Part shown: piece by piece, positions 10,957 through 12,555 of the stretch
How positions within the stretch are numbered: the stretch's first letter is position 1
How the letters are laid out: the number at the start of each line of letters is the position of its first letter
Assembly (NCBI GenBank): GCA_017621815.1
Contig: JAGASK010000030.1
Location: 1 to 49,378 of the forward strand
DNA: 49,378 bases
Direction of reading: 5' to 3'
From: Lachnospiraceae bacterium
GTDB taxonomy: Bacteria; Bacillota; Clostridia; Lachnospirales; Lachnospiraceae
Position numbers and translations under genes: made by a program
The notes under the pieces: model-generated
The model's database searches: none
The model's input: the letters and a program-made list of their open reading frames with translations, nothing else
Told to the model about the DNA's origin: nothing

Positions 10957-10989
10957 AAAAAAACTGCCATGGAAATTACCATGACAGTT
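10957..10989 (-). terminator. Intrinsic terminator of the attenuator before the ABC exporter genes
   Basis: Read on the minus strand: AACTGTCATGG, loop TAATTT, CCATGGCAGTT (11 bp with one G-U pair), then TTTTT. It lies between the promoter at 11240-11268 and the first exporter gene, so it must be read through for the operon to be expressed. The segment at 10967-10980, spanning the loop and parts of both arms, can instead pair with the leader-peptide coding region at 11108-11123. Confidence 0.88.
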
Positions 10990-11052
10990 AAAATCTGATA
11001 ATGGGAAGTGCGCTGTGCGTACTTTATGTTGTATACCGGGCAGCTTGCAGAG

Positions 11053-11160
11053 CTAAAAGCCATTTAAGCAAGCGGACAGCATCTTATCAGAATAACATAA
11101 GAAGAGAGGTAATTTCATCATGGAATCAGCTATATGGTTGTCAGTAATATAAAAAAGCAT
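11053..11160 (-). CDS. Leader peptide of the ABC exporter operon (BmrB-like role)
   Basis: A 35-residue open frame starting MLFYITDNHIAD and ending LNGF, preceded by a perfect AAGGAGGT (11169-11176) 8 bases from the ATG. It has no recognisable domain; its role is to be translated. Codons 13-18 (SMMKLP) contain CCATGATGAAATTACC, which is complementary to GGTAATTTCCATGG inside the downstream terminator except for a 2-base bulge, so a ribosome on these codons would control whether the terminator forms. A 6-bp hairpin (GCTTGC/GCAAGC, 11043-11073) surrounds the stop codon. This is the arrangement of B. subtilis bmrB upstream of bmrCD, where ribosome-targeting drugs cause read-through. The peptide sequence itself I cannot relate to BmrB. 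Confidence 0.8.
   Translation of the reverse strand: MLFYITDNHIADSMMKLPLFLCYSDKMLSACLNGF
11108..11123 (-). promoter_or_regulatory. Antiterminator arm inside the leader peptide
   Basis: Minus-strand CCATGATGAAATTACC pairs with the terminator segment at 10967-10980 (CCATG, 2-base bulge, GAAATTACC, all 14 remaining bases matched). This pairing and the terminator stem are mutually exclusive because they share both terminator arms. Confidence 0.8.
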
Positions 11161-11239
11161 AATTCGTTACCTCCTTTCTTAAGACTCGTTAACAGTTACA
11201 ATGTAAAAAAGCTTAAAACCATTTTTACAGCACGATACT

Positions 11240-11268
11240 AACATACGACAGGTTTTATAATTTGTCAA
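11240..11268 (-). promoter_or_regulatory. Sigma-A promoter of the exporter leader
   Basis: Minus strand TTGACA (11263-11268), 17-base spacer, TATGTT (11240-11245). Transcription should start near 11233, giving a leader of about 300 bases before the first exporter gene. Confidence 0.75.
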
Positions 11269-11382: not shown

Positions 11383-12555
11383 ATGGTATCATTACTTGCA
11401 AAATTACTGATTACAAATTATAAGGATACAAATGACCCGGAAGTCAGAAAAGCTTATGGGATGCTTTGCGGGGCAGTAGGGATTGTACTGAACATATTTC
11501 TGTTTATCGGCAAGGCTTTGGCTGGTCTTATCAGCGGCTCAATTGCAATTACCGCAGATGCCTTTAACAATTTGTCAGATGCAGGTTCTTCAGTAATTAC
11601 ACTGGCAGGTTTCCGCATGGCAGGTCATAAGCCGGACAGTGACCATCCTTTTGGACACGGCAGAATAGAATATATTTCCGGGTTTCTGGTATCTGTTGTG
11701 ATTCTTATTATGGCATTTGAATTACTGAAAACATCTGTTGATAAAATAATCCATCCCTCTGTGATAGAGGCAAGTCCGTTGATTATAATTATTCTGTTAA
11801 TTTCGATTCTGGTTAAGGTATATATGTCCTTGTATAACAGAGCCATCAGTAAAAAAATTGACAGTGCGGCAATGGACGCCACTGCAAAAGACAGTTTGAG
11901 TGATACAGTGGCAACTTTTGTGGTACTTGGCACTACGCTGCTTGCCGGGGCAACCGGTCTTCAAATCGACGGATACTGCGGTGTCATAGTAGCTCTTTTT
12001 GTATTTTTTGCAGGCTACAGTGCTGCAAAAGAGACTATAAGCCCGCTTCTCGGACAGCCGCCGGAACCGGAATTCGTAAAAAAGATTGAAGAGATTATTA
12101 TGGAATACCGCAGCCAGGGAGTAATCGGACTTCACGATTTGGTTGTACATAATTACGGACCGGGAAGAGTGATGCTGTCCGTTCATGTGGAAGTGCCTGC
12201 ATCAGGAGATATTCTGGCGCTTCATGATATGATAGATACCATTGAACACAGGCTTGCCAGGGAATTGAAATGCAGTGCGGTCATTCATATGGATCCTGTT
12301 TTGCTGGATGATAAAATGACAAATGAAATCAAAGCCAAAGTGGCGGCAATCATTGCCGGTATGGAGGGCAGTGTCAGTTTTCATGATTTCCGAATTGTCC
12401 ATGGTCCCACCCATACAAATCTGATTTTTGATGTGGTAGTGCCTTATGATTACGTTATGACCGACAGTGAAGTGGTGGATTATATTCAAAAAAAGATAAC
12501 GGAAATAGATGAAAATTATTACGTTGTTATTGATGTGGATAAGGCGTATGTTTAG
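11383..12555 (+). CDS. Cation diffusion facilitator (CDF) metal exporter, Mn-type motifs
   Basis: A 390-residue antiporter expected to export a divalent metal across the plasma membrane. It has about six membrane helices followed by a cytoplasmic ferredoxin-like domain (from about residue 215). The two metal-site motifs are N62-x-x-x-D66 (AFNNLSDAGSS) in helix 2 and D170-x-x-x-D174 (KDSLSDT) in helix 5. Zinc CDFs usually have His-x-x-x-Asp in these helices; Asn/Asp variants are typical of the manganese group, so Mn2+ is the best guess. The C-terminal domain is long, with a second ferredoxin-like segment (HDFRIVHGPTHTNLIFDVVVP). RBS AAAGGAG is about 13 bases from the ATG, somewhat far. Confidence 0.88.
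   Translation: MVSLLAKLLITNYKDTNDPEVRKAYGMLCGAVGIVLNIFLFIGKALAGLISGSIAITADAFNNLSDAGSSVITLAGFRMAGHKPDSDHPFGHGRIEYISGFLVSVVILIMAFELLKTSVDKIIHPSVIEASPLIIIILLISILVKVYMSLYNRAISKKIDSAAMDATAKDSLSDTVATFVVLGTTLLAGATGLQIDGYCGVIVALFVFFAGYSAAKETISPLLGQPPEPEFVKKIEEIIMEYRSQGVIGLHDLVVHNYGPGRVMLSVHVEVPASGDILALHDMIDTIEHRLARELKCSAVIHMDPVLLDDKMTNEIKAKVAAIIAGMEGSVSFHDFRIVHGPTHTNLIFDVVVPYDYVMTDSEVVDYIQKKITEIDENYYVVIDVDKAYV

Follow-up and report, generated by a model that had tools for sequence, protein, structure and literature searches.

Ribosome-controlled switches of resistance genes are already known, among them bmrB, vmlR, cplR, tlrB and ermD. The bmrB leader of bmrCD in Bacillus subtilis is induced by lincomycin, erythromycin and chloramphenicol and needs translation of the leader (Reilman 2014, PMC4191407); according to that paper, induction was lost and expression fell when the leader was not translated, the terminator lies inside the 53-aa ORF, and three structures are placed in nucleotides 60-162 of the ORF. 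In vmlR of B. subtilis a stalled ribosome prevents the anti-antiterminator; the system has a three-codon uORF, a Shine-Dalgarno (SD) sequence in a single-stranded stretch before the anti-antiterminator and an ABCF target (PMC9226507). The cplR leader of Clostridioides difficile and other clostridia is a uORF-controlled attenuator with an ABCF target; its uORF, of three codons, is hidden by a 5' hairpin, and the main gene's SD by the terminator (PMC10201436). Short leaders with the macrolide arrest motif R/K-X-R/K (hereafter +X+) and a structural switch precede the rRNA methyltransferase genes tlrB (yxjB) of B. subtilis (PMC6851288) and ermD (leader ermDL, PMC8298421); for tlrB no overlapping antiterminator was identified, and direct blocking of the terminator by the ribosome is proposed instead (PMC6851288).

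The DNA analysed here (the window) is a stretch of 49,378 nucleotides from a 3.5-Mb Lachnospiraceae assembly, and the leader locus lies on its minus strand. A sigma-70-type promoter with 10 of 12 matches precedes the leader and comprises a -35 box TTGACA (11268-11263) and, after a 17-nt spacer, a -10 box TATGTT (11245-11240); the simple promoter scan found 4 promoters against 3.8 expected on both strands, which is the chance level. The promoter is followed by an SD region, TTAAGAAAGGAGGTAA (11182-11167), enclosing a strong ribosome binding site, AAGGAGGT (11176-11169), and by a predicted leader ORF of 35 aa, MLFYITDNHIADSMMKLPLFLCYSDKMLSACLNGF (11160-11053), with its ATG at 11160 and its stop codon ending at 11053. 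An intrinsic terminator (10989-10957; hairpin of -15.6 kcal/mol) begins 63 nt after the leader stop, the family median of this distance being 54 nt, and consists of an 11-bp stem (10989-10962) with a 6-nt loop and of a T tract reaching 10957. An earlier note, made from the letters alone, had described this promoter, the 35-codon leader, its SD and the 11-bp U-tailed terminator, and all four were recovered where it had placed them. On the plus strand, a divergent cation diffusion facilitator gene (11383-12555; TIGR01297, above cut-off) has its ATG about 115 nt from the -35 box of the leader promoter.

Two half-exporter genes, also on the minus strand, lie downstream of the terminator. The first (10930-9203) has a TTG start preceded by an SD-like AAGGAGGGG, a degenerate Walker B motif (Asp 495) and the signature LSGGQ, and the second (9198-7420) has the Walker B residue Glu 514 and the signature LSIGQ, which agrees with the pair of degenerate and intact ATP sites that the earlier note had read. 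The Walker B Asp of the first gene is kept in all of the 92 orthologs (of 98) that cover the position. The BmrD chain 7m33_D matches the second gene with an E-value of 6e-97, ranked below the TM288 and Sav1866 chains, and no BmrC chain occurs among the matches listed for the first gene, which cover 60 of 213 sequences. As at bmrB, a short leader ORF with its SD stands directly before a pair of ABC exporter genes, one ATP site being degenerate.

The leader ORF contains a strand with two possible partners. Its first part, the antiterminator strand CCATGATGAAATTACC (11123-11108), can pair with the terminator segment GGTAATTTCCATGG (10980-10967). In this helix of -14.7 kcal/mol a 2-nt bulge separates stretches of 5 and 9 bp, and its p is 0.010 when the leader is dinucleotide-shuffled 400 times. 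Both the complementarity of a leader segment to the 5' arm and loop of the terminator and the position of the antiterminator arm within codons 13-18 had been claimed before and are borne out. A third partner had been overlooked: the anti-SD strand TTACCTCTCTTCTTA (11112-11098), which overlaps the antiterminator strand by 5 nt, can pair with the leader's own SD region (11182-11167) in a helix of -16.3 kcal/mol (p 0.005, 400 dinucleotide shuffles). The word GGTAA is common to the terminator segment and the SD region. The minimum-energy fold of the whole leader beats its shuffles (z -2.91, 1 of 200), and the SD is paired in this predicted fold. In attenuation terms the modelled SD-strand helix is the anti-antiterminator, with the SD region as its 5' arm and the anti-SD strand as its 3' arm, and it is also predicted to hide the leader start.

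Orthologs of the first exporter gene, with 44-82% identity to the window's protein, were taken from 37 genomes of the genus (25 with one), from 200 family genomes (best matches) and from 77 loci of named genomes, namely uncultured Lachnospiraceae, Eisenbergiella, Kineothrix, Anaerocolumna, Mobilitalea, Herbinix and one Roseburia MAG; distant named-genome loci (Fictibacillus, Flavobacterium and others) were left out. The final set of 109 loci (at least 40% identity, upstream sequence present) excludes L025 (orientation), 12 duplicates, 12 loci without usable upstream sequence and five below 40% identity. In 98 of the 109, the exporter is preceded by an SD, an ORF of 15-60 codons and an intrinsic terminator, in this order. 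The 11 orthologs that fail this mechanical pattern were each read individually: the pattern is wholly or partly present in L079 (ambiguous bases), L138 (wrong terminator picked) and L128 (contig end), and eight have no leader, two of which, L118 and L053, have just 211 and 394 nt of upstream sequence. At L022 and L091 an upstream gene reaches the terminator, the leader being absent and the terminator retained. The leaders have a median length of 31 codons (range 18-56 aa), and 71 of 95 (three of the 98 left out) have an upstream promoter that matches at 10 or more of the 12 positions, against 6.2 expected in shuffles. Under a strict rule the arrangement occurs in 69/109 orthologs and 0/20 paralogous exporters, and under a loose rule in 96/109 and 1/20, the paralogs (37-41% identity, family genomes including the window's) having been chosen from a longer list. 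Judged by sequence, the arrangement is restricted to one exporter group among those compared.

Two members were also noted by eye. L008, a genus member from the same genome region as L062, has a GC-rich insertion with repeated units between the terminator and the exporter start. The more distant exporter L161, at 43% identity, lies behind an SD, a leader that carries an anti-SD strand and whose peptide opens with MMIKLR, hence with an early +X+, and a hairpin resembling a terminator. When 299 family genomes were scanned with a DNA pattern for the SD/anti-SD pair, 24 of them yielded 26 hits, five of these upstream of the exporter group (L158, L159, L161, L175 and L180), and the reversed pattern, used as a control, yielded more; tblastn with the two exporter proteins at the pattern hits revealed no other gene using the switch, although looser versions may exist elsewhere.

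Pairing was scored for compact helices against 400 dinucleotide shuffles per leader, the terminator being represented by its 5' arm and loop. At p 0.05, 64 of the 98 leaders have a significant SD pairing and 43 a significant terminator pairing, and in the most distant identity band 7 of 28 leaders reach this level for the terminator. With full duplex energies of the leader against the whole terminator, the terminator signal is weak (22/98 at p 0.05, against 74/98 for the SD). The two pairings share at least 5 nt of the strand in 74 of the 98 leaders, where 14.9 are expected from shuffles. Furthermore, swapping partners among 75 thinned leaders weakens the pairing for the SD (z 10.3, 0/5000 permutations) and for the terminator (z 8.9, 0/5000); in the window's identity band (23 leaders) the corresponding permutations are 0/5000 and 111/5000. 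Since relatives are not independent, nearest-relative pairs were compared: the own SD pairs better in 27, worse in 9 and equally in 13 of 49 pairs (sign p 0.004), and the own terminator better in 24, worse in 12 and equally in 13 (sign p 0.065, Wilcoxon 0.027), its advantage being not significant in close pairs.

The SD side can be followed base by base. Leaders close to the window typically combine the SD extension TAA or TAATTT with the strand (AAA)TTACC, whereas distant members have the extension CAG with CTGCC; overall, TAA accompanies the strand TTACC in 51 of 59 leaders, and CAG accompanies CTGCC in 9 of 12. Among 87 leaders (the 90 with a recognised strand core minus 3), the first base after GAGG pairs in 78, against 68.8 in permutations, as T-A, C-G or T-G, the third in 81 against 72.0 and the fourth in 35 against 26.1; position +2 is invariant, and +5 and +6 show no excess pairing. 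Single-position tree tests, with 6 changes each in the SD base, gave median sign p of 0.5 and 1 and are underpowered. In the genus members L076 and L065 the leader SD reads GGAGA instead of GGAGG, and the L076 strand TAACATC matches its GGAGA SD, a natural compensatory case. Words shared by the SD and the terminator are barely longer than in permutations (4.61 against 4.14, sd 0.10), so that imitation of the SD by the terminator is strong near the window and weak family-wide. For the co-variation that the earlier note had proposed as a check on its stems, the sequences give good support between SD and strand, and support between terminator and strand that is weaker. The terminator of another unit, a spurious ORF and fortuitous complementarity could together have produced the window's own p-values, merely 0.005 and 0.010, but such a coincidence is contradicted by the recurrence of the arrangement, its restriction to one ortholog group, the recurring promoter and the co-variation, and it can practically be dismissed.

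In the main fold model, transcripts end just past the terminator loop and, when a ribosome is present, only the RNA downstream of it is folded. Across the family, the free RNA has 2.9 expected strand-terminator pairs, with at least 5 in 19 of 98 leaders, and a ribosome at codon 5 raises this to 12.3, with at least 5 in 89 of 98; the rise is similar for codons 3, 7, 9 and 12, and 188 codon-shuffled controls have 6.8 pairs. In the window the value goes from 2.0 pairs in the free RNA to 13.0-13.8 with the ribosome at codons 3-9, and is 3.8 at codon 12. The value of this model for a ribosome at the stop codon is zero by construction and is no evidence on the fully translated state. A milder model, in which only the ribosome footprint is masked and the SD may pair across the ribosome, leaves the window unaffected (2.03 against 1.99 pairs) and acts less strongly on the family, where the value rises in 52 and falls in 6 of 97 leaders (1 of the 98 left out). 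The switch logic therefore requires the ribosome to keep the SD from reaching the strand, a reasonable assumption of the modelling. When full-length window RNA is co-folded, a calculation that the earlier note had also suggested, a ribosome at codon 3 makes the antiterminator fold the lowest (-44.4), and one at codons 5 and 7 the terminator fold (-44.2); given this near tie, the antiterminator could prevail only by forming before its competitor. The former claim that the position of a ribosome decides which fold forms thus stands in silico, but its two folds were too few, since three structures compete.

The best explanation of the locus, to which we assign a probability of about 80%, is a three-state, ribosome-controlled transcription attenuator that turns the pump on through an early stall in the leader. 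It builds on the parts, their recurrence, the SD-strand co-variation and the exporter-group restriction, all of them properties of sequence. The strand 11123-11098 would pair with either the leader's own SD or the terminator's 5' arm and loop. When no ribosome is present, the models let SD and strand pair, which would hide the leader start and allow the terminator to form (off). Under unhindered translation, the ribosome would cover the strand up to the stop codon and the terminator would again form (off). An initiated ribosome stalled on early codons would, in the models, separate the SD from the strand, and the freed strand would capture the 5' arm of the terminator, so that transcription continues into the two exporter genes (on). 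Translation inhibitors would, by analogy, supply the stall, and the exporter would presumably remove toxic compounds.

The RNA appears to be kept while the peptide is free to vary. Counts of codon phase, of frame openness and of +X+ were made on 90 leaders, the 8 of 98 without a recognised strand core being left out. The core is not tied to one codon phase: the three phases account for 49, 18 and 23 of the 90, a quick tree of the exporters implies 11 or more shifts between them, and the core is read as Lys-Leu-Pro in the window and as Ile-Thr-Ser or Val-Cys-Leu in others, which argues that the RNA rather than the peptide is conserved. On leader conservation, a further check of the earlier note, the ORF is found at most orthologous loci (98/109), but its peptide is not conserved. 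That the leader frame is open to 9 nt past the strand core follows from the selection of the data; the same stretch is open in the +1 frame in 4 and in the +2 frame in 9 of the 90 leaders, so the open leader frame is not simply a consequence of composition. These mostly closed frames also speak against a ligand- or protein-binding riboswitch with an incidental ORF. The competing helices would suit such an element, but no Rfam family fits the window's leader at gathering score (two hits, E up to 1, fall far below it) and no conserved core outside SD, strand and terminator was noticed by eye in the printed leaders, which makes a riboswitch very improbable.

A variant of the attenuator, in which the switch reads the occupancy of the SD by an initiating ribosome (with drugs that freeze start complexes as inducers) and elongation is minor, draws on the fact that the clearest co-varying pairing involves the SD. 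The leaders, at 18-56 aa, extend past the strand, which initiation alone would not need, and the other frames are rarely open that far (just 4 and 9 of 90), so we regard this variant as rather unlikely.

As to the signal read by an elongating ribosome, 43 of 90 leaders have +X+ ahead of the strand, where residue shuffles give 27.4, and a stall there would leave the strand free in 37 of the 43 cases. After thinning, the counts are 34/65 against 21.3, and after harder thinning 23/52 against 16.4 (p 0.016); in the window's identity band they are 7/15 against 4.8 (p 0.13), and with leaders grouped by exporter identity the excess has z 2.6 (68 groups), 1.4 (38), 1.9 (17) and 1.7 (5). No clear excess is seen in the 90 leaders for basic residues at neighbouring spacings or in the other two frames; acidic residues at the +X+ spacing, a control class, are in excess too (7 against 3.1, sd 1.5). 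Because the excess shrinks upon grouping, enrichment of this macrolide-arrest motif in the leaders of relatives is suggestive at most. The motif is absent from the window's own 35-aa leader. Codons 24-26 of that leader (11091-11083, minus strand) encode Ser-Asp-Lys, which fits the XDK macrolide arrest type named in PMC8298421; this tripeptide is downstream of the switch strand, and a stall there would not obviously free it.

The same RNA switch might instead report a general slowdown of translation, as in amino-acid shortage or ribosome damage, rather than antibiotics in particular. The variable peptide, with which any early stall might suffice, and the lack of +X+ in the window leader are in keeping with this. 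However, the target is an exporter, the relatives show the modest excess of a macrolide arrest motif, and there is no shared regulatory amino-acid run: runs of at least three of one amino acid are absent from the window leader and occur in 12 of 98 leaders, with mixed residues. We regard this signal as rather unlikely; it is a variant whose odds overlap those of the attenuator reading. For that preferred reading, an antibiotic response of the window's switch is what the analogy with the known systems and the modest +X+ excess in relatives would suggest.

Set beside the described systems, the window shares with bmrB a leader ORF, a terminator, an antiterminator and a predicted anti-antiterminator before a two-gene ABC exporter, a multidrug one in B. 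subtilis (PMC4191407). Unlike bmrB, where both terminator and anti-antiterminator are described within the ORF, the terminator of the window follows the leader stop and its anti-antiterminator uses the leader SD. Because these two layout features of the bmrB description were not found, the window switch was placed outside the bmrB family; it appears to work like bmrB but to be built differently, and the leader is likely an independent or strongly diverged version, as the earlier note had proposed. With vmlR it shares anti-antiterminator, antiterminator and terminator logic set by a ribosome stalled on a uORF (PMC9226507), and its models likewise contain three mutually exclusive structures under uORF control; it differs in that its SD is paired in the predicted fold and its target is an exporter, not an ABCF gene. 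As modelled, the logic of off without initiation and on upon stalling is the same as in bmrB and vmlR. The cplR leader resembles it as a uORF-controlled attenuator with a hidden uORF, and differs in its three-codon uORF, in the terminator hiding the main-gene SD and in the ABCF target (PMC10201436); tlrB and ermDL are comparable as short leaders with a structural switch of a resistance gene, but their described targets are methyltransferases and the window leader is without +X+ (PMC6851288, PMC8298421).

No Lachnospiraceae exporter attenuator of such build appeared in titles and abstract openings among the literature matches listed, a search of incomplete coverage. From the known systems it differs in having its terminator behind the leader, the leader SD in the anti-antiterminator, a long variable leader and a tie to one exporter group. 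A broader proposal, held tentatively and at somewhat below even odds, is that throughout Lachnospiraceae the leader's own SD would be the anti-antiterminator, the terminator would be partly SD-like and a single anti-SD strand would toggle both initiation and termination, with the RNA fixed and the early codons serving as an exchangeable sensor, often +X+, that retunes the inducing drug.

If the attenuator reading is right, many Lachnospiraceae, from the gut and other habitats, carry an exporter that can be induced and probably responds to drugs, and its switch is recognisable in the sequence. The 98 leaders, with a shared RNA logic and varying peptides, would then be a natural series on nascent-peptide arrest by ribosome drugs, and may help to ask how gut commensals sense macrolides or lincosamides.
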